Of a DNA stretch of 36,126 bases, positions 10,141 to 35,589 are shown piece by piece. Origin of the DNA: Candidatus Fermentibacterota bacterium (GTDB taxonomy: Bacteria > Fermentibacterota > Fermentibacteria > Fermentibacterales > JCC-6); NCBI GenBank assembly GCA_030609965.1, contig JAUWSQ010000026.1, positions 1 through 36,126 on the forward strand, given 5' to 3'. The notes under the pieces are model-generated. The model had not been told where the DNA came from. It did not search any database and was given only the letters and a program-made list of their open reading frames with translations. The position numbers and the translations under genes are program-made. The stretch's first letter is position 1. Each line of letters opens with the position of its first letter.

Positions 10141-11133
10141 TTATTTAACAGGGATCCGGCTCAGAATCCTGTCCAGAATTTCCTCAACACCGATTTCTTC
10201 AGCTTCCGCTTCAAAGGAAAGAATGATACGGTGACGAAGAACGTCATGTGCCACTTCCTTCACGATCGTGGGACCCACGAATGCCTGACCGTAAAGAAGA
10301 GCCCTTGCTCTCGATGCTGCAAGCAGGCCGAGAGAACCTCTGGGGCTGGCTCCCACTGAAATAAGATCCTCCAGGTCCTTAAATCCAGCCTGTCTGGGGT
10401 GACGGGTAGCAGCTGTGAGCCTGACCATGTAGTTCATGATCACATCTTCCACAAGTACCTGAGAAGATATCCGCTGAAGTTCAATTACATCCTCTGTAGT
10501 CATGACCGGATCTATCGAAGGAACCGGTTTTCCTCCGATTCTCTTGAGTATTTCAATCTCCTCGTCTGCTGTAGGATAATCGACCTTCAGTTTCATCAGG
10601 AACCTGTCCACCTGGGCTTCAGGAAGAGGATATGTTCCTTCCTGCTCTATGGGGTTCTGGGTTGCCATTACAAAGAAAGGTTCCGGAAGATGGTGGGTTT
10701 CGCCTCCGAAGGTGACCTGACGCTCCTGCATTGATTCAAGAAGGGCGCTCTGGACCTTAGCTGGTGCTCTGTTGATCTCGTCAGCAAGGATGAACTGAGC
10801 GAAAATTGGTCCTTTCCTGGCTTCGAAGGTATTCGTCTGCGGTTTGAAAATCATCGTTCCTGTAATATCAGTTGGAAGTAGATCCGGAGTGAACTGCAGC
10901 CTTGAGAATGTAGCGTTGACGCATTTGGAGAGGGTTCTTGCAGCGAGGGTTTTTGCTAGACCCGGCACACCTTCAATCAGAACGTGTCCATCACAGAGCA
11001 TCGCAGTTATAAGACCGAGACGGAGTTCTTCCTGTCCGACAATAACACTGGAAAACCTGGACTTGAGTTTATCCAGAAGTGGTTTCTTGTCTGAAATCAG
11101 CTTTTCAAGTTCTTCAACCTGTTCTCTAGGCAT
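10141..11133 (-). CDS. moxR: MoxR-family AAA+ ATPase
   Basis: 330 aa. Walker A GVPGLAKT (55-62), Walker B ILADE (115-119), the AAA_3 signature EINRAPAKVQSALLESMQER, sensor-1 Asn160 (MATQNP), and EAQVDRFLMKL. The C-terminal helical lid contains SPRGSLGLLAASRARALL, standard for MoxR. Length matches the family. ATG 11131-11133 has GGAGGG six bases upstream and overlaps the phosphomutase stop by 8 nt. MoxR ATPases act as chaperones for vWA-containing partners, here presumably DUF58, BatA and BatB, which follow in the same transcript. Confidence 0.95.
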   Translation of the reverse strand: MPREQVEELEKLISDKKPLLDKLKSRFSSVIVGQEELRLGLITAMLCDGHVLIEGVPGLAKTLAARTLSKCVNATFSRLQFTPDLLPTDITGTMIFKPQTNTFEARKGPIFAQFILADEINRAPAKVQSALLESMQERQVTFGGETHHLPEPFFVMATQNPIEQEGTYPLPEAQVDRFLMKLKVDYPTADEEIEILKRIGGKPVPSIDPVMTTEDVIELQRISSQVLVEDVIMNYMVRLTAATRHPRQAGFKDLEDLISVGASPRGSLGLLAASRARALLYGQAFVGPTIVKEVAHDVLRHRIILSFEAEAEEIGVEEILDRILSRIPVK

Positions 11134-12484
11134 CTATTTCCCTCCTGGCTTTTTTGATGAAATTCCGTGTTGTATTTTCATAGTCCAGAAGACCCTTACG
11201 GGTTCCAGCTTCAAATCTCATAACCAGAACGGGCTGAGTATTGGATGCCCTTACAAGGCCCCATCCATCCGGGAAGGTGATCCGGGCACCGTCGGTTGTA
11301 TTTACTTGATAATTTTCCTTCTGGAATAGCTCGGTTACTTTGTTGACGAGAAGGAATTTAGTATCATCATCGCTGTCTTCCCTTATCTCGGGTGTTGAGA
11401 AAACCTTCGGGAGATCCTGCAGATAGCTGCTAAGAGGAATAGTGCCCGAAGCGATTATCTCGATAAGCCTCAAGGCGGCATAAAGGGCATCATCGTAGCC
11501 GTAATAGCGATCTCTGAAAAAGATGTGACCGCTCATTTCTCCAGCGAGGAGTGCATTTTCCTTGATCATTTCCTTTTTAATGATCGAATGCCCTGTAGGG
11601 GACATGAACGATATCCCTCCTGCCTTTTCAATTTCAGAAAAGAAAAGTCCTGAAGCCTTAACCTCTGACATGATGGTTGCTCCTGGATTTTGCTTCAGAA
11701 GTGCTCTTGCAAGGATAATCAGTATCATATCTCCCCGAATGACCTCTCCCCTGTCGTCTATTACTCCAAGACGGTCTGCATCTCCGTCGAAGGCGAGACC
11801 TATATCTGCTCTTTCACTGATAACCGTTTCTTTCAGGTCAGATAGGTTATCCTCAACGGTAGGATCGGGGTGATGATTTGGGAAATCACCGTTCATATCG
11901 CAGTAAAGAGGAATAACCCTGCAACCCAGATTTCGAAGGATCGTTATGGCTGTATCACCACCGGTTCCGTTGCCCGCATCAACTACGATCCGCAGTGACC
12001 GATCAAGCGAAAATTCCCACAGCAGTCTTTCAAGGTATGGTTTCCTTACGGAAACCTGCTGAATTGAGGTTTGCTGGGATATATCAACAGAATCCGTGAC
12101 AATCTCCATTCTTCTGCCGAGGTCCTGTATGGAATCACCGTATATTGTCTCATGTCCGAATAATATTTTGAAGCCGTTGTACTCGGGTGGGTTGTGGCTG
12201 CCTGTAATCATTACTGTGACATCAGGATTGAGGGTATACGCGGCAAAATACGTCATCGGTGTGGTCAATACACCAAGATCAAGGACATCGCATCCTGCTG
12301 AACGAATGCCATCGGCAAGCCATTCCATCAAAACAGCCCCGGATTTCCTGCAGTCCCGGCCAACAGCGATGCTTTGTTTCGCAATTGAACCGAGCACCCG
12401 GCCAAGCCTGATGGTAGTGCTCCTATCAAGATCATCAGGATATATGCCCCTGATGTCGTATTTCCTGAAAATACTGTTTTTCAT
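11126..12484 (-). CDS. Phosphomannomutase/phosphoglucomutase
   Basis: 452 aa, the usual length of the alpha-D-phosphohexomutase family. N-terminal FRKYDIRGIYPDDL; phosphoserine loop MITGSHNPPEYNGFK with Ser96; metal loop DGDADR (233-238) with LGVIDDRGEVIRGD; sugar-binding GEMSGHIFF; phosphate-binding C-terminus RASNTQPVLVMRFEAG. It interconverts mannose-6-P/mannose-1-P or glucose-6-P/glucose-1-P; the sequence does not decide which. ATG 12482-12484 follows the upstream stop directly (TAAATG), with AAGGAA as ribosome site. The product would feed nucleotide-sugar synthesis for envelope glycans, fitting the mannosyltransferase-like protein at 22059-24437. Its position just before moxR is an unusual operon partner. 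Confidence 0.94.
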   Translation of the reverse strand: MKNSIFRKYDIRGIYPDDLDRSTTIRLGRVLGSIAKQSIAVGRDCRKSGAVLMEWLADGIRSAGCDVLDLGVLTTPMTYFAAYTLNPDVTVMITGSHNPPEYNGFKILFGHETIYGDSIQDLGRRMEIVTDSVDISQQTSIQQVSVRKPYLERLLWEFSLDRSLRIVVDAGNGTGGDTAITILRNLGCRVIPLYCDMNGDFPNHHPDPTVEDNLSDLKETVISERADIGLAFDGDADRLGVIDDRGEVIRGDMILIILARALLKQNPGATIMSEVKASGLFFSEIEKAGGISFMSPTGHSIIKKEMIKENALLAGEMSGHIFFRDRYYGYDDALYAALRLIEIIASGTIPLSSYLQDLPKVFSTPEIREDSDDDTKFLLVNKVTELFQKENYQVNTTDGARITFPDGWGLVRASNTQPVLVMRFEAGTRKGLLDYENTTRNFIKKARREIDA

Positions 12485-18139: not shown

Positions 18140-19804
18140 TTATCTGTTTACAATTACCATTGCGTTCCAGCTGGAAGCTCCTTTTGAGAATCTTGCGATA
18201 TACATCCCGGAAGGAACTGCATAACCGTTGCTGTTCCTCAGGTTCCATACCAGGTTCTCACTAACCGGAGAAACATCCATAACAATGATGGAACGGCCTG
18301 TAATATCGTAAATTGACACGGTTCCTCCAACCCCCTGCTGCGGGATAGTAAAACTGCAGGATTCCCGCGATGGATTGGGGAAGACGGAGAAGGCTCCCTC
18401 AAATCCAGATTCGGATCCCTCAATTCCCAGCTGGGAAAGGACAAAACTCACTTCCACCCTTTCCTGTGAACCCACAGATATATTCTCCACCGATTGTGAT
18501 GTATAACCGTCAGCGGTCACTTCCACATCGTATGTGTTCGGTAGAAGTGTCTTGTGGTAATCACCGAGGGTTACATCCGTTCTGCAGAACCTGAGGATTT
18601 CAGAATCAGTACCGTCATGTATGCCTATCGAAAGCTGGGCATCTATGGGATCTCCCGAAGAATTTGTGACGGTTCCCCAGATGCCGTAGGTGCTGTTTGT
18701 GAAAAATTCCAGTATTGCCATGTAGTGGGCGTTTGCAACACCCGGCCAGTCGGAAGCCTGTTTGTTATCATGTACTTCAATCGTATGGTCGACAGTGCCG
18801 CATTCACCGTAGCTCCAGTCATTGACATCACCGTGTGTTTCGTACCAGCTCCAACCGGGGTATGCTATCCAGAAACTGCTGCCGAAATAGCTTACTATCC
18901 CGGGAACAGAGGCGTAATCAAGGGCCTGCTGATGAACAACTCCCGAATCTTCAGGAAGAGGGTTTCCGGTGTAATTCCAGACGGTATTGATGCAGGCAGC
19001 ACCACCATGAAGTGAAAGACCGCCTGTGAATGGATTTATGAAATTCTCGATAGCCGGCCAGCTTTGCATTGTAAGGTCTCTCAGAGCCGCGGTTTCCGGT
19101 TCACAGAACGGAGCCGATCCGCCTCCAGAACCGGTCCACATATAGCTGAGGTTCCTGTTAAGATCAATTCCATTAGCGTTAACTCTCTGGTCATGAAAGT
19201 AAGCATCAGGGTTGAGAACAGGAATTATCCATGTTTCAGTATTTTCAACTATATACTGACACATAGGGCTGGTGGCATAGTTATCTGAAAGAACCTCTAG
19301 ATAATTTAGCGTAGTCATCGCCGATGTCTTCTCATCACCATGAATCGCACCATGAATTCTCATCTCGGGTTCGATTTCTTCGGTCGCGGGATTGTCGGAT
19401 ACGACAACAGCTACAATAGGTCTGCCCTGTACACTGGTGCCTATTGTAACTTTTCTGCAGATATCCGGATGGGCTGCAACTACAGCATCTATCGAATTGT
19501 ATATATCATCAAGTGAAGGATATGGAACCAGAGGTTCCACTACGGGTACCGGAATGGGACTGTAGCCCATATGACGAAGCATTTCCTCCTGCTGAGCATC
19601 AACGTAGATCATGGCTTTTCCGCCGTGAGCCCATTCTATAAGGAACCCCTCTTCCTCGAGGAATTTTACTTCTGACAGATTGATATCTCTGATAGCGACA
19701 GAGTAATGGGGAACAGAATAGCTGAAATCGTTCGACAGCATCGTCCTGCCTGCAAAGGATAAAGCAGATATTACAAACAGAATCGGAATTAATTTCTTAA
19801 ACAT
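18140..19804 (-). CDS. Secreted M14-family zinc carboxypeptidase with C-terminal sorting domain
   Basis: 554 aa. Signal peptide (MFKKLIPILFVISALSFAG), a short propeptide-like region, and an M14 catalytic domain (about 98-365). Zinc ligands His155 and Glu158 (HGAIHGDE) and His266 (LSLHGG), substrate-binding NGIDLNRN around 211-218, and catalytic Glu343 (DHTIEVHD) are all present. A carboxypeptidase-regulatory-like beta domain follows (about 374-450), then a C-terminal domain (474-554) with FSVFPNPS, VSIYDITGR and PSGMYIARF, typical of type A (T9SS-like) sorting domains. It should be exported and released or anchored outside, where it trims peptides from the C-terminus. ATG 19802-19804, with GAGAGGA upstream. 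Confidence 0.93.
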   Translation of the reverse strand: MFKKLIPILFVISALSFAGRTMLSNDFSYSVPHYSVAIRDINLSEVKFLEEEGFLIEWAHGGKAMIYVDAQQEEMLRHMGYSPIPVPVVEPLVPYPSLDDIYNSIDAVVAAHPDICRKVTIGTSVQGRPIVAVVVSDNPATEEIEPEMRIHGAIHGDEKTSAMTTLNYLEVLSDNYATSPMCQYIVENTETWIIPVLNPDAYFHDQRVNANGIDLNRNLSYMWTGSGGGSAPFCEPETAALRDLTMQSWPAIENFINPFTGGLSLHGGAACINTVWNYTGNPLPEDSGVVHQQALDYASVPGIVSYFGSSFWIAYPGWSWYETHGDVNDWSYGECGTVDHTIEVHDNKQASDWPGVANAHYMAILEFFTNSTYGIWGTVTNSSGDPIDAQLSIGIHDGTDSEILRFCRTDVTLGDYHKTLLPNTYDVEVTADGYTSQSVENISVGSQERVEVSFVLSQLGIEGSESGFEGAFSVFPNPSRESCSFTIPQQGVGGTVSIYDITGRSIIVMDVSPVSENLVWNLRNSNGYAVPSGMYIARFSKGASSWNAMVIVNR

Positions 19805-24512: not shown

Positions 24513-24586
24513 GGGGCCGGGTCTAACATCTAAACATTTTTTATTAATACGCTGATAATGAATGTTTAGATGTTAGACCCGGCCCC
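24513..24586. repeat. REP-like palindrome: perfect 26-bp inverted repeat with 22-nt loop
   Basis: Left arm 24513-24538 and right arm 24561-24586 are exact reverse complements (core GGGTCTAACATCTAAACATT). The loop is A/T-rich. No T-run follows on either strand, so it is not a classic rho-independent terminator. The form resembles REP palindromes mobilised by Y1-type (RAYT) transposases. No transposase lies in the window. Confidence 0.88.
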
Positions 24587-24603
24587 GATTGTTAGGATTC
24601 GAG

Positions 24604-24649
24604 GCCTGACCCCTTTTGCTAAGAATGCTAAGTTCTGGTGCCTGACCCC
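24604..24649. repeat. Paired GCCTGACCCC repeats beside the palindrome
   Basis: GCCTGACCCC occurs at 24604-24613 and 24640-24649. On the minus strand it reads GGGGTCAGGC, a short motif common at the edges of REP/RAYT-type elements. Together with the palindrome it fills most of the 217-bp gap between two minus-strand genes. Confidence 0.6.
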
Positions 24650-24654
24650 AAATG

Positions 24655-25662
24655 TTATCTTTCTACACTGATAATACCCTGGGGACCATCTCCGGCTGCA
24701 AGAGAATCGAGCATAACCTTTGTTGTCCAGTCCGCAATGTAGACCATATCTTCGTTAAAATCAGTGATGTAAAGTGTATCACCGCTGCACGCTACTCCCC
24801 ATGCAGAGGTAAGGCCTGTATTCCATGTGTCATTGAGGCTGCCGTTTTCATCGTAGAAATAGAGATTACCTGACATCCAGCCATCACCTGTTATGAAACC
24901 CGAGCCTGCTTCTACAGGGTAAACAGGAGAACCGCCGGTATTTACCTGAGCAAGAATTCCCATACTTGAAGGATCTATTATTGATATCACACCGTCCATG
25001 TAAGTAGATGTTACTGCATGCACCATACCAGTTTCACTGAAATATCTCATGTAGGTTACATTATCATTCGTGATTATGGAATCGATAACACTTCCCGAAG
25101 ATGCATCAAGAACTGTTATGCCGCCGGTTACTGAAGTGTCGGGCCAGGTTCCATGCCCCACCAGGATATAACTTCCAGTGGATGCTATTGATGTGGGGTT
25201 TGCCTTAACATCGATGATCGATACCGAACCGCCTGAAGAGAGGTCTACTTTCGCCACCTGGCTCGTCATGAGAAGTGTAACCCAGAGATGATTCCCATCC
25301 CAGGACATCTCGTAAGGGTTACTTCCGATGGGTAGATCAATATGAAATAGTTCTCCACCTGTAGAATTCACGTCAAAAACCTGAACAGTGCTTGAAGTTG
25401 AGTTCAGCACGGCTATTCTGTCCTTTTCGTGGGAGATAATATCGTTGGGCATTTCATCTGTGATGTAAGCAGTGGTTACAAGCGAATCGCTTTGGGGGAA
25501 GTATAGATCAACAGTATTACCCAGGCCGTTGAACCATGCAACTACAAGGCCGCCGGGAGTGGGTTCCGTGGAGGGTTCAGCGGGTGAGTTGCACGATACT
25601 GCAATAAGGCTTATCAGTAACGCGCTGATCAGAGTTAAGAGTCCTGGACGGTATCTTTTCAT
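24655..25662 (-). CDS. Beta-propeller (YncE-like) lipoprotein, partner of the TonB receptor
   Basis: 335 aa from ATG 25660-25662 (AAAGGA lies at the right distance; the longer ORF starts inside the receptor gene). Signal sequence LLTLISALLISLIAVSC with a probable lipidated Cys, although AVSC is not an ideal lipobox. The rest is seven-blade-propeller-like repeats, e.g. DRIAVLNSTSSTVQVFDVNS, HLWVTLLMTSQVAKVDLSSG, SYILVGHGTWPDTSVTGGIT and TLYITDFNEDMVYIADW. The gene begins 10 nt after the receptor's stop and so shares its cobalamin-riboswitch leader. YncE-like surface lipoproteins encoded beside corrinoid receptors may capture substrate; that role is inferred from context. Confidence 0.87.
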   Translation of the reverse strand: MKRYRPGLLTLISALLISLIAVSCNSPAEPSTEPTPGGLVVAWFNGLGNTVDLYFPQSDSLVTTAYITDEMPNDIISHEKDRIAVLNSTSSTVQVFDVNSTGGELFHIDLPIGSNPYEMSWDGNHLWVTLLMTSQVAKVDLSSGGSVSIIDVKANPTSIASTGSYILVGHGTWPDTSVTGGITVLDASSGSVIDSIITNDNVTYMRYFSETGMVHAVTSTYMDGVISIIDPSSMGILAQVNTGGSPVYPVEAGSGFITGDGWMSGNLYFYDENGSLNDTWNTGLTSAWGVACSGDTLYITDFNEDMVYIADWTTKVMLDSLAAGDGPQGIISVER

Positions 25663-25672
25663 CATTATCCTT

Positions 25673-27619
25673 TCAGTTTCCGTTCCAATTGATTCCAAAG
25701 TACAAAGTTCTCGGTTTTCCTGAGTATCCGCTGGTTTCCTGGTAGTCTTTGTCAAACAGGTTCTCCGCAGAGGCGTTGAAAGAGAAATTTCCCATGAATT
25801 CAGGATGCAGATCAACACCTGCCTCGAAGACCATGTAGGCGGGCATCCATGATGTTTCACTGTAGTTTTTGAATCTTATGCCCATTCCGCTCGCGGACAC
25901 CGACCAGTGAGCCCAGAAGGGATATTCCACTCCTGCCTGAACACCGAATGTGTAATCAGGTGTATAAGGCAGAGTTCTACCGTAGTTTACCGATTCGATG
26001 AAGTTGTCGGTAACGTCCAGAAGAGTGAGGGTACCGGTTATTTCGACGGGACTATCCGAAAACCATACTTCCGTTTCGATGCCTTTTCTAAGAACTCCTG
26101 CGATGTTCACGGGAGACCATTTCCCGCCCTCTCCCGGTTCCCACCTGATAAGATCATCGGTTTCCGCGATAAAACCTGTTGCAGAGAATGTAAGCCAATC
26201 AACGGCATTGAATGAAATCCCGCTCTCGAATTCCACCGAGGTTTCCGGCAGAAGGTCCGGGTTACCATGTGCAAAATTATCCTCCGGCCAGTACAGATCG
26301 TTAAGCGAAGGGCGCCTGAAACCTGTTGATGCGGAAGAATGCAGCAGGAGAAGCGAATCCAGCGCAGGCAGCCCCATCGAAAGCACAGCTCCATACATTG
26401 TGCGTTGTGAAGAGACCAGATTAAGAGATGCCGAGGCGGAAATGGACAGGCCATCACCGTATCCGGCGGTCAATGCGGTTTCCCCTGTCACCCTGTCCCG
26501 CTCACCAAGCGAAGTGCTCCATACTCTATCGAGAGAGGTATTCGCGGATAACCCAAGATGAAAGGGCAGCAAAGGCAGATTGTACTCAAGGGTCAGATCC
26601 CCGCCCAATTCATCATGCGTATCATCCACTATGGAAGGTTCGGTGCTTACATATTGATGCCTTCCAGTTCTCATACCGAGGGAAAACCTTACTCTGCCCG
26701 GACTCCATCTCCCCCAGGTGTCAAAGCTGTACCTTTTTCGTGCACCATCGGTGGGAAGGGTCCAGTCAGGGCTTTCTGTTTCTCCTCCGGAGACAGCTGC
26801 AAGGAAACCGTAAGTGAGAGGGGAATCATTTCCATGAATGAGAAGGGATCCGTCATGGGCTGTGGATCCGGATATACCCGCGAGCCTCCTGATACTCAGT
26901 GCAACCCGGTTAATCCCGGATGTAAATGCGCCTGAAAAGGTGATGGATTTATCATCACCTGCGGTCAGAGATGCTCTGGGAGGCAAACCTGCGGATTCCG
27001 GAATGAAATTCAGGGTGCCGGCCATACCGCCTTTGAGAAAACCCGACCCCCCTCCTCTTGCTATTTCAAGCCCGCCGAACAGTACAGGATCCAGTGTCAT
27101 TCCGGGGAGGCAATCCATCGAACTGCTTATTTCATGTCCATCAACAAAATACTCGGAATGGGCTGCGTCGCTTCCCCTTATGGAGATGGAGATCACCGGC
27201 ATGGCACCTCCGTATTCGCGAACATAAATACCGCCGCTTCTGCTGCTCAGGCACCCCAGGCCGGATCTGCCCAGGTATTCCATATCATCCCTGCCCAGTA
27301 CAGTCGTTGCGGGAAACCGGTCTCTGAACCCGCCGCGCGGAGCTGTTACGGAAATCACCATCCCGGAGGGAACAGGTACTGAGATGAGGAAGATATTGCC
27401 GGAGAATGGAATTGCTCCCTCCCACGTTCTGTATCCTATTGCCCTGACTTCCACGGAGTCAGTTCCAACAGGCAGGGATACTTCTCCTCTTGTGTCTGAA
27501 ATACCGATAAGTGTGCTATCTGTGCAGATGGAGGCTCCAATGACAGGGCGACCGGAAGTATCGACTATGGAAAGATCAACCTGTGATAAACTGATCAGCA
27601 ATAAAAGCAGTTGTATCAA
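25673..27619 (-). CDS. TonB-dependent outer-membrane receptor (probable corrinoid uptake, BtuB-like)
   Basis: 648 aa from TTG 27617-27619. This start has AGGAGG (27627-27632) six bases upstream and begins a signal peptide (IQLLLLLISLSQ); an in-frame TTG further upstream lies within the riboswitch and is rejected. An N-terminal CarboxypepD-reg-like domain (VDLSIVDTSGRPVIGASICT) is followed by the plug (SISIRGSDAAHSEYFVDGHE, VLFGGLEIARGGGSGFLKGG) and a roughly 480-residue beta barrel with RRPSLNDLYWPEDNFAHGNP and LLPETSVEFESGI, typical of TonB receptors. The C-terminus GKPRTLYFGINWNGN ends in a barrel strand. Control by a cobalamin riboswitch makes vitamin B12 or another corrinoid the likely ligand. 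Confidence 0.94.
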   Translation of the reverse strand: MIQLLLLLISLSQVDLSIVDTSGRPVIGASICTDSTLIGISDTRGEVSLPVGTDSVEVRAIGYRTWEGAIPFSGNIFLISVPVPSGMVISVTAPRGGFRDRFPATTVLGRDDMEYLGRSGLGCLSSRSGGIYVREYGGAMPVISISIRGSDAAHSEYFVDGHEISSSMDCLPGMTLDPVLFGGLEIARGGGSGFLKGGMAGTLNFIPESAGLPPRASLTAGDDKSITFSGAFTSGINRVALSIRRLAGISGSTAHDGSLLIHGNDSPLTYGFLAAVSGGETESPDWTLPTDGARKRYSFDTWGRWSPGRVRFSLGMRTGRHQYVSTEPSIVDDTHDELGGDLTLEYNLPLLPFHLGLSANTSLDRVWSTSLGERDRVTGETALTAGYGDGLSISASASLNLVSSQRTMYGAVLSMGLPALDSLLLLHSSASTGFRRPSLNDLYWPEDNFAHGNPDLLPETSVEFESGISFNAVDWLTFSATGFIAETDDLIRWEPGEGGKWSPVNIAGVLRKGIETEVWFSDSPVEITGTLTLLDVTDNFIESVNYGRTLPYTPDYTFGVQAGVEYPFWAHWSVSASGMGIRFKNYSETSWMPAYMVFEAGVDLHPEFMGNFSFNASAENLFDKDYQETSGYSGKPRTLYFGINWNGN

Positions 27620-27626
27620 GAAAAAA

Positions 27627-27655
27627 CCTCCTGCAGCTTGTAATAGCCGCGGAGG
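27627..27655 (-). promoter_or_regulatory. Shine-Dalgarno-sequestering hairpin (riboswitch expression platform)
   Basis: On the minus strand CCTCCGCGGC (from 27655 downward) can pair with GCTGCAGGAGG (down to 27627), with a bulge or mismatch in the middle. This hides the AGGAGG of the receptor gene. With cobalamin bound, the upstream aptamer should favour this hairpin and block translation. There is no terminator T-run between aptamer and start, which fits translational control. Confidence 0.6.
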
Positions 27656-27700
27656 TGTGGCCGAAGCCTGATCCCTTATGCGGGAATCCTGCTTCAGGCC

Positions 27701-27836
27701 GCGGTGCAATATCCTGACTTCCGGATCATCCCGTTCCCCGCCTTCCCACCTTGCGGCAGTGGCATTAATGGGGTTCGGTACCCGGTTACAGTGGCGCTAC
27801 CGTGGCGGATTTACACCGCCTTCCTGCACCCCGCGA
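27701..27836 (-). promoter_or_regulatory. Cobalamin (AdoCbl/B12) riboswitch aptamer
   Basis: On the minus strand: closing stem GGTGCA (27825-27830) with TGCACC (27703-27708); then GGTGTAAATCCGCC; the B12-box-like core GCCACTGTAACCGG (27782-27795); a second GCCACTGC; GGGAAGGCGGGG; and GGAAGTCAGGAT near the 3' end. Order and spacing match the cobalamin riboswitch. It is the leader of the TonB receptor and lipoprotein genes and should repress them when cobalamin is plentiful. Confidence 0.95.
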
Positions 27837-27853
27837 CCAGCATTTCAAAAAGA

Positions 27854-27882
27854 TATATAATGATCAAAGAATGAAAGAGCAA
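27854..27882 (-). promoter_or_regulatory. Promoter of the riboswitch-controlled uptake operon
   Basis: TTGCTC (-35, 27877-27882), a 17-nt spacer and TATATA (-10, 27854-27859) on the minus strand. The predicted start, about 7 nt further, lies just upstream of the first riboswitch stem. Confidence 0.6.
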
Positions 27883-33264: not shown

Positions 33265-33756
33265 ACGGGGTTCCTCTTTAATATGATGACCACTAACACT
33301 GTGATTACTATCTCCTCCCCTGTACTGGTCCCCCTAATGATTTCAAGTTGGAAACCGTTCCTGGACTAGCCCGCATATTTCACCAGCTTTTGTTGCTGCA
33401 GATTTCTCCGGGAACCAAATGTTTCTGGTCTATCTGGTTTCGAAGCGTCGTAGACAGTTGTGAATACGAGGCTTGCGAGTGCAGACTCCGCAGGCGTACT
33501 TATACAGTATACCGGAAATAGAGGTCGGTTAGGAACTCTGCAATCGGGCTTCATGGGTGAGGTTTGTACCAATGTTGTGGGGTTTTCGCAGTGATCAGAG
33601 GGTTTCTTCATTGACGGCTGCGGAGTTCGGGGAGTATGGTCAGTTTCGGGTAGCGAAATTGGATGATATTGGGTCGAATATGCTGTTTTGGGCTATTTTG
33701 ATGAAATGGTGCAAATCCAGTTTCCTTATGTTCATAACACTGAAAGGGGTAATGTT
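33265..33756. other. Non-coding interval of about 490 bp
   Basis: No ORF here looks coding: frames are short and without recognisable motifs. A possible promoter for the downstream peptidase is TTGACG (33611-33616), 18 nt, TATGGT (33635-33640). The stretch 33480-33600 has an even composition unlike the flanking genes and could be a repeat-type element of this genome, which needs other copies to tell. Confidence 0.5.
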
Positions 33757-35589
33757 ATGAAACTGCTATTCTGCATTATGCTTATATGCAGTTTTCTCAG
33801 TAATGCTGATTCTTCCTCTCCTGTAATATCAGAATCTGCTGTAGACGACGTAGTGTCGGAGCTTGTTTCCCGTGTGGGAGACTACAGTCGCTCAAATCCG
33901 GATGCTCCCGGAGCGATTCTTTCATGGGTTGATAATGAGATCAGTGTAGGAGAAGTGATTCTTATACACTCTTATCCTTCGTATCAGCCCAGTTATTTCT
34001 ATGTAGTGCTTGTGAATGCGCATGAAGAACAAACATCTTTTGTAACAATAGGCGCTTTAGATGGGAATGTGCAGGCATATGGAGATATCTATGAAGGGTA
34101 TTCGTACCCGTCAGTAGATCATGAAATGGCAATTGAAATAGCTTCCAGGCTGCTCGGGAGACACTGCGAACCGGAGGAACTGATAGCTGTGAGCATGCCT
34201 AATAAGAGCATCTATTGGTATGTGACGTATACAGGTGATTTCTTTATAAATCTCAATGATCCGAACGAAATACACTATCAACTTGACAGTTCACTGATTC
34301 CACCACCTATTGAACTTGAAATCCCTGATGAAGCCGAAAAATACTTTGAAGATACTCATCAGGATTCATTTGACTTCCCTCCAAGCTACGACTTAACAGT
34401 TCCGCACTACTATCAGTTTACTAGTTACCATTGCGGACCTACTTCATGTAGAATGATTTTTGATTACTGGGGAGAGGATATAAGCGATAGCGATATTGGG
34501 AAAGTCGCGAATTGCCTGGAGTTCATTGGCAGTTATGCTTCTGATAATCGACGAGCTGGATCGTTCAGCTATATAAGCACAGCAATTCAAGAGCCATCAC
34601 TTCATGGTTACAATGAGCGTGATTTAGGCTATTCAAGTGTTGACAATTTCTGGTCGTATCCGAATACTTCCGATCCTGACTATCCTGATCGCTATAACGA
34701 TCTGAAGGAGTTAGTCAGTTCAGGATATCCTATTCAAGTTCTCACATGGTACGATGCCTCGCATAGTGCTGGTCATTTTCGTGTAGTAAAGGGTTATGAC
34801 GATAAAACTGATATATTTATCGTTCATGATCCATGGTACACCGCACCATATCAAGGTCCTGATGTTAACTTTGATCAAACCTTTTTCGTGGATGATTTAT
34901 GGGAAGACTACTACCACTGGGGTTCGATGATGGCTCCATTTATTATTGATATAACCTGTCCGGCAACTGTTCAACAGGGGGAACAGTTTTCTTTCACAGT
35001 TGATATTGAATGTCCCGGACCTCACCCATTTGACGGCAGTTATCCGATGTCAGAGGAATCATGCACTGTAGTGATTCCATCTGACTTTTCATTTGCGACC
35101 GGTGAAACTGCTGCCAAATCAATATCTCTTGCTTCCTCCGGATCAAGTACATTTGAATCCTGGACAGTTATTGCTGGAACCACTACTGGAAGCGCATCAA
35201 TATCTGCAAGCGCAAAAGGCAAAATATCCGGCACATCGTATAGCTACTCTTCTTATGAAGATTTCATAGGCGGGGGAGGTGATACCTCTTTGGTAGTAAA
35301 TACAACTGGTATTGAGAATGGTGAAGCATCCGATATTTTCCAGCTATTTCCGATAGCTCCCAACCCTGCACACGGTGGCTTTACAATCGACTTCGCAGTT
35401 CACGAAATGTCCAATGTTGAGATCAATGTATTTGATCTTGCCGGAAGACATATACTCCGCTCTACTGACAGCGAATGTCCTGAGGGAATTCACAGCGTAT
35501 ACATCAACGATCTTTCTTCAGGTCTTTACTTCTGCAGCATGAGCGCCGGTGAATATCAGGATATGAAGAAAGTTGTTGTTATCAAATGA
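33757..35589 (+). CDS. Secreted C39-like cysteine peptidase with C-terminal sorting domain
   Basis: 610 aa from ATG 33757-33759, which has GAAAGGGG upstream and opens a signal peptide (MKLLFCIMLICSFLSNADSS). An N-terminal region (25-180) resembles a propeptide. The peptidase_C39_2-type domain (about 212-390) has VPHYYQ, catalytic Cys226 in YHCGPTSC, His340 in SAGHFRVVKGYDD and Asp358 in HDPW. A beta-sandwich (395-510) follows, then a type A sorting domain (about 530-610: FQLFPIAPNPAHGGF, NVFDLAGR, LSSGLYFCSM). It should be exported by a T9SS-like route and cleave extracellular proteins or peptides. The gene looks more A/T-rich than its neighbours (not computed), and it stands alone between two long intergenic stretches. 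Confidence 0.92.
   Translation: MKLLFCIMLICSFLSNADSSSPVISESAVDDVVSELVSRVGDYSRSNPDAPGAILSWVDNEISVGEVILIHSYPSYQPSYFYVVLVNAHEEQTSFVTIGALDGNVQAYGDIYEGYSYPSVDHEMAIEIASRLLGRHCEPEELIAVSMPNKSIYWYVTYTGDFFINLNDPNEIHYQLDSSLIPPPIELEIPDEAEKYFEDTHQDSFDFPPSYDLTVPHYYQFTSYHCGPTSCRMIFDYWGEDISDSDIGKVANCLEFIGSYASDNRRAGSFSYISTAIQEPSLHGYNERDLGYSSVDNFWSYPNTSDPDYPDRYNDLKELVSSGYPIQVLTWYDASHSAGHFRVVKGYDDKTDIFIVHDPWYTAPYQGPDVNFDQTFFVDDLWEDYYHWGSMMAPFIIDITCPATVQQGEQFSFTVDIECPGPHPFDGSYPMSEESCTVVIPSDFSFATGETAAKSISLASSGSSTFESWTVIAGTTTGSASISASAKGKISGTSYSYSSYEDFIGGGGDTSLVVNTTGIENGEASDIFQLFPIAPNPAHGGFTIDFAVHEMSNVEINVFDLAGRHILRSTDSECPEGIHSVYINDLSSGLYFCSMSAGEYQDMKKVVVIK

Follow-up and report, generated by a model that had tools for sequence, protein, structure and literature searches.

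The systems closest to the one described here are those of Bacteroides, namely BtuB1G1, BtuB2G2 and BtuB3G3, in which a cobalamin riboswitch accompanies a BtuB-type receptor adjoining a lipoprotein that forms a seven-bladed propeller (PMC6143338, PMC10404256). BtuG sits on BtuB as a lid (PMC10404256). Wexler et al. searched 313 gut genomes and found BtuG only in Bacteroidetes (PMC6143338). It was put forward as an addition to B12 uptake that is specific to Bacteroidetes, with gut competition as the explanation (PMC6143338). At the RNA level, the closest described system is the translational type of the cobalamin riboswitch (RF00174), of the E. coli btuB kind. Here, a full-length aptamer is followed by a hairpin, and the Shine-Dalgarno sequence (SD) is sequestered in the last hairpin of the leader.

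No literature on B12 uptake in Fermentibacterota was found in a search that was not exhaustive. The locus described here lies in a stretch of 36,126 nucleotides (the window, i.e. the whole stretch of DNA analysed) from a Candidatus Fermentibacterota genome, G000, which consists of 81 contigs and is 80.7% complete. It was compared with a set of 42 Fermentibacterota genomes, from which the operon regions were fetched; the loci of the relatives are labelled L0xx or L1xx. All features of the operon are on the minus strand, and their coordinates are window positions. A preliminary description had read the locus as a complete uptake operon with a promoter, a cobalamin aptamer, an SD-sequestering hairpin, a receptor with a TTG start and a β-propeller lipoprotein. 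It is quite probable that the locus is a two-gene corrinoid-capture operon, controlled at the level of translation by a cobalamin riboswitch.

The first gene (25673-27619, minus strand) encodes a TonB-dependent outer-membrane receptor of 648 amino acids, BtuB type, with matches to TIGR01779, PF00593 and PDB entries. The B12 receptor model TIGR01779 is its best NCBIfam match (E 1.6e-19), and its best solved relatives are the BtuB structures of B. theta (8p97, 8p98, 8bmx and 8blw), which supports a receptor of BtuB type. The score of 69.9 bits, however, falls below the equivalog cut-off of TIGR01779, 599.7 bits, and the protein is, therefore, called 'BtuB-type' and not BtuB. At the N-terminus, there is a weak match to a carboxypeptidase-regulatory-like domain.

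The second gene (24655-25665, minus strand; ATG at 25665) begins seven bases after the stop codon of the receptor. Its product is a BtuG-like β-propeller lipoprotein of 336 amino acids with a lipobox cysteine, Cys25, which is invariant in 25 of 25 aligned copies (A1). The AF2 model of the protein (pLDDT 91.7) has about 28 strands. With its lipobox, this model and its place directly 3' of the BtuB-type receptor, the gene fits the earlier claim of a propeller lipoprotein in the position of BtuG. The accompanying claim, that its sequence is different from BtuG/BtuH-type proteins, is correct only in so far as a PDB search with the sequence by itself brings up no BtuG chain. A profile built from 25 relatives (A1) does reach BtuG1 (8ptf, 8ptd and 8blw; 4e-12 (3.8e-12) to 1e-11, profile positions 65-197), so the protein is more than an analogue without kinship to BtuG. 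The best PDB match of this profile is 1l0q, an archaeal YVTN surface-layer protein (3e-18), while the match to E. coli YncE (8e-6) is far weaker than that to BtuG1. The preliminary description had also called for a structure comparison with BtuG. In the Foldseek search of the PDB, BtuG chains fill most of the top places (ranks 2-5 and 8-13), with a query TM of 0.65-0.76 and an identity of 12-16% for BtuG1, BtuG2 and BtuG3, but 1l0q ranks first; the model has the fold of BtuG, and this fold is not exclusive to it. As the profile reaches BtuG1 and BtuG fills most of the top fold matches, the lipoprotein is probably a remote homologue of BtuG. Propellers in general match one another, so that the fold by itself is no proof of corrinoid binding. 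The residues from the lipobox cysteine onwards read CNSPAEP in the window, or else CRDVxGP, and the Bacteroidota lipoprotein export signal was not seen in the aligned copies when these were inspected by eye. The protein is, for this reason, called BtuG-like and not BtuG. This signal was described for Bacteroidetes (PMC6143338) and may not apply in Fermentibacterota. We infer a surface location, corrinoid binding and a complex with the receptor for the lipoprotein, and a ligand response for the operon.

Just 3' of the lipoprotein gene, at 24513-24657, there are a 32-nt inverted repeat and units that end in GCCTGACCCC and are spaced 27-36 nt. The genome holds seven exact copies of GCCTGACCCCNNNTGTTA, several of them paired with a near copy 36 bases apart. 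The repeat at 24513-24657 looks like a dispersed palindromic repeat.

The propeller is matched in 37 of the 42 genomes, a few of these being weak partial matches to other propellers, and a cobalamin riboswitch is present in 39. The propeller gene comes directly 3' of the receptor gene, on the same strand, in 29 relatives as well as in the window, usually 0-50 bases apart or with a 4-base overlap; the neighbourhood is largely conserved within the main family, and the pairings are thus non-independent observations. In L096, however, the pair is retained although the neighbourhood is unrelated. The preliminary description had made its reading depend on the presence of the propeller beside other riboswitch-linked receptors, and this is what is seen across the phylum. 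Only two receptor copies are without a propeller, L074 (beside a CobS gene at G019:C196) and L119. Further, the propeller of L095 is at a contig end, the receptor of L109 is fragmented, and L077, L112, L113 and L116 end at contig ends. A scan of the genome collection with the closer set A3, by a method which reaches close relatives only, returned Fermentibacterota only, with records named Candidatus Aegiribacteria, Fermentibacteraceae and Fermentibacteria. In L099 and L100, open frames of about 1000 amino acids were considered as receptor-propeller fusions and rejected: in this GC-rich DNA, the frame of the propeller merely stays open across the receptor gene, which uses a different frame. In L097, the space between the two genes holds a tandem repeat of about 35 nt (gcacgctctggtgcgtgtcccggaaaataagacat; oriented positions 11085-11204), and related sequence is present in L098.

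The aptamer (27850-27686, minus strand) had been claimed from its appearance, and the Infernal check proposed for it gives a strong match. With cmscan, RF00174 is matched over the whole model (1-189) at 80 bits (E 2.5e-18), against a gathering score of 31.5. It is the sole RF00174 match in this genome (81 contigs, 80.7% complete). The claimed promoter (27854-27882, minus strand) stands on less firm ground. Its elements are readable, with TTGCTC at 27882-27877, a 17-base spacer and TATATA at 27859-27854, and the block is kept in five close relatives (L081, L083, L085, L093 and L077). However, the candidate -35 agrees with the consensus at only three of six positions, and the consensus promoter scan did not pick up the block. 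As a promoter, the block is plausible.

3' of the aptamer, folding gives an intermediate hairpin (about 27659-27700, minus strand), whose loop CCGC(A/T)NNA(G) is conserved across the relatives and is a candidate kissing-loop partner of the aptamer loop GGTAGCGCC. A kissing loop is known in the cobalamin riboswitch class, and the two loops, GGTAGCGCC and CCGC(A/T), which are both nearly invariant among the relatives, fit it. As the CCGC loop is nearly invariant, the pairing shows no covariation. The GCCACT...GGGAAGG arm was also considered as a kissing-loop partner of the anti-SD GCGGC and rejected, as it ends in variable tetraloops and GGTAGCGCC/CCGC is the better pair.

The last hairpin of the leader (27626-27656, minus strand) sequesters the SD. 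Here, ACCTCC (27656-27651) pairs with GGAGGT (27631-27626) in a stem of 12 pairs with one bulge. For 30 receptor loci, the 48 bases preceding the start were folded, and 28 of these loci have the SD as the 3' arm of a stable hairpin, in keeping with the translational switch and the SD-sequestering hairpin that had been claimed. L119, which folds weakly, and L112, in which the start position is unclear, are the exceptions. The sequences of these hairpins are unlike each other. The arms are CCTCCGCGGC/GCTGCAGGAGG in the genus of the window, CCGCCTCC/GGAGGCGG (also given as CCGCCTCC/GGAGGAGGCGG) in L100 and CCCGC/GCGGG (also given as CCCGCGACTTTCAC/GTGAAAGGCGGG) in L103-L110. The MAFFT platform alignment (A4) misaligns the anti-SD and SD between genera, and the support is, therefore, drawn from per-locus folds and not from covariation counts. 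By thermodynamic folding alone, the SD site is closed, and the hairpin is so stable that permanent closure is predicted. The ON state must, then, be kinetic or use other, putative pairings. The CCGCGG of the aptamer 3' strand recurs in the anti-SD strand, and in the fold the two are paired only before the SD is transcribed; on this model, the CCGCGG/CCGCGG pairing is hypothesized as a possible antisequestor.

The receptor starts with TTG (27619-27617, minus strand), seven bases past GGAGG, just as the preliminary description had it, and a non-ATG start is kept in the relatives. Read from the sequence, receptor starts are non-ATG in about 25-26 of the 30 loci. TTG is used in 20 of these loci, GTG in one (L077) and apparently ATT in four (L081, L084, L085 and L111), where relatives have TTG; ATG is used in four others (L083, L087, L091 and L119), and L112 is unclear. 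The lipoprotein genes of the operons, in contrast, start with ATG in nearly all cases. Thus, a weak start seems to be maintained at the regulated gene, the receptor.

As for the need for corrinoid, B12-binding domains are encoded in all 42 genomes (19 of them in the genome examined), CbiC in none and CobS in four. On these grounds, Fermentibacterota look like corrinoid auxotrophs or scavengers, and import should be needed. A cluster of BtuF-, BtuD- and BtuC-like genes is present on another contig (G000:C13:60574-63130, i.e. L146:4575-7131), directly after a gene of the sigma-70 family, and no riboswitch was found at this cluster. As the periplasmic and inner-membrane parts lie elsewhere, the operon in the window is not complete, and the description of a 'complete uptake operon' goes too far.

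A second riboswitch-associated locus is seen in many relatives. A protein with the pattern DPWADxSPxVxYGxGAGxGQ...NILGPPDP, beginning at DPWADxSPxVxYG, is encoded in 23 of the 42 genomes and is absent from G000. In the loci read, it adjoins a propeller of 395-400 amino acids with a type IX sorting tail, usually with an RF00174 of its own upstream (for example, L061:9492-11526 and L065:9917-11961). The best PDB matches of this type-IX-tailed propeller are BtuG3 and BtuG2 (2e-9), and its invariant Trp, W151, lines up with W194 of BtuG2 when positions are counted by hand. The model of its partner is poor (pLDDT 66.6, pTM 0.52) and its fold search is informative only for the secretion tail; a search of the PDB with the partner profile did not match BtuH. 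The window itself, at 18140-19804 and 33688-35589, encodes M14 peptidase-like and C39-like proteins that carry type IX secretion tails, and the organism, therefore, probably has a type IX secretion system.

The propeller genes of the operon have not always kept the company of their receptors. The receptors of L092 and L093 group with the clade of the window (71-82%), and so do the downstream glycosyltransferase of both loci and both upstream neighbours of L093 (72-80%). The propellers of these two loci group with L097/L098, at 72-79% versus about 46-51% to the clade of the window. In L088, the situation is reversed, the receptor and neighbours going with L097/L098 and the propeller with the clade of the window. 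The regrouping in the propeller tree has supports of 100/99 and 99/98, and the receptor tree places L088 with L097 and L098 (98/100); the trees were built without the L090 propeller. In AU tests, the swapped topologies are rejected with p values of 0.00018, 7e-48, 1e-41 and 4e-7, which are optimistic, as the groups were named after the identities had been seen. In a sliding comparison, the switch in L092 and L093 falls about 110-260 bases into the propeller gene, so that the signal-peptide part is retained, with the switch back near the gene end. The exchanged stretch of L088 extends from the receptor stop to just beyond the propeller gene. Each of these three loci is on a single contig of its metagenome assembly. 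In L088, L092 and L093, a divergent allele has taken the place of the mature propeller, in what looks like homologous replacement of an exposed domain.

The operon may be proposed to work as follows. In a replete cell, cobalamin would fold the aptamer, the hairpin would close over the SD and the receptor would not be made. The lipoprotein would also be shut off, by coupling across the seven-base gap. When corrinoid is scarce, the SD site would open and the receptor would be made from its weak TTG start. The lipoprotein, exported probably to the cell surface, would capture corrinoid and pass it to the BtuB-type receptor, much as Bacteroides BtuG supplies BtuB, and the BtuFDC-like proteins encoded elsewhere would carry it on.

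Other explanations have to be weighed against this one. The riboswitch might act mainly by transcription termination, in which case the hairpin and the TTTTTT directly after it in the genus of the window would be an intrinsic terminator, with the SD inside it by coincidence; GGAGGTTTTTTC is indeed found immediately 3' of the stem in the window and in several close relatives. However, the T-run is missing or broken in L088, L090, L097, L099, L100 and L103-L110, all of which keep the SD-in-stem geometry, and the terminator scan, which permits no bulge, did not flag the site. Termination as the main mode is, in our view, improbable. The retention of the SD in the stem where the T-run is absent supports translational control as the conserved part, termination being at most an addition.

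The propeller, for its part, might bind something other than corrinoid; it would then be, for instance, an adhesion factor or a surface protein of the general YncE/YVTN kind, and have no more than the operon in common with the receptor. It has the fold and repeat pattern of the YncE/YVTN propellers (1l0q and YncE), its best match by both profile and fold is the surface-layer propeller 1l0q, and its gene has been replaced by divergent alleles in an antigen-like manner. It differs from these propellers, however, in its operon context and lipobox; the pairing with a riboswitch-linked receptor is phylum-wide, and BtuG1 is the best match among the ligand-binding YncE relatives. We, therefore, hold a non-corrinoid propeller to be unlikely. 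Still less credible, to the point of being hardly worth entertaining, is a receptor for another substrate, such as haem or a siderophore, with an indirect link to the riboswitch. Haem and siderophore receptor models do match the protein, but weakly, whereas the B12 receptor model leads the NCBIfam matches, B. theta BtuB leads the solved relatives and a cobalamin aptamer is found upstream of nearly every receptor copy. A corrinoid-capture pair under translational control is, thus, the preferred reading.

So read, the operon resembles the BtuB-BtuG systems of Bacteroides in its riboswitch, its BtuB-type receptor with an adjoining propeller lipoprotein, its apparently corrinoid-auxotrophic host, and the fold and remote sequence similarity of the propeller. 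It differs from them in belonging to an uncultured phylum, in the low identity to BtuG (12-16% by the fold search), in having no fused or adjacent BtuH and no Bacteroidota-type export signal that could be seen, and in consisting of one receptor-lipoprotein pair with btuFDC elsewhere. Its leader has the full-length aptamer, the following hairpin and the SD sequestered in the last hairpin that mark the E. coli btuB kind, but the start is usually TTG and sometimes ATT, and a U-run follows the stem in the genus of the window.

A wider proposal, for and against which the balance is about equal, is that BtuB-BtuG capture extends beyond Bacteroidota and throughout a phylum of corrinoid auxotrophs. 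It would take two forms there. One would be the lipoprotein next to BtuB; the other, present in many relatives, would be a BtuG2/3-like propeller that is secreted by the type IX route and has a partner and a riboswitch of its own. The lipoprotein would be an exchangeable surface module, its mature domain swapped by homologous recombination while the receptor and neighbours stay. The allele swaps suggest diversifying pressure on the exposed part, whether from phage, toxin or corrinoid type. A divergent BtuG homologue would also offer a test of which residues matter. If the proposal is true, surface capture of corrinoids would be a more general strategy of auxotrophs and not one specific to Bacteroidetes.
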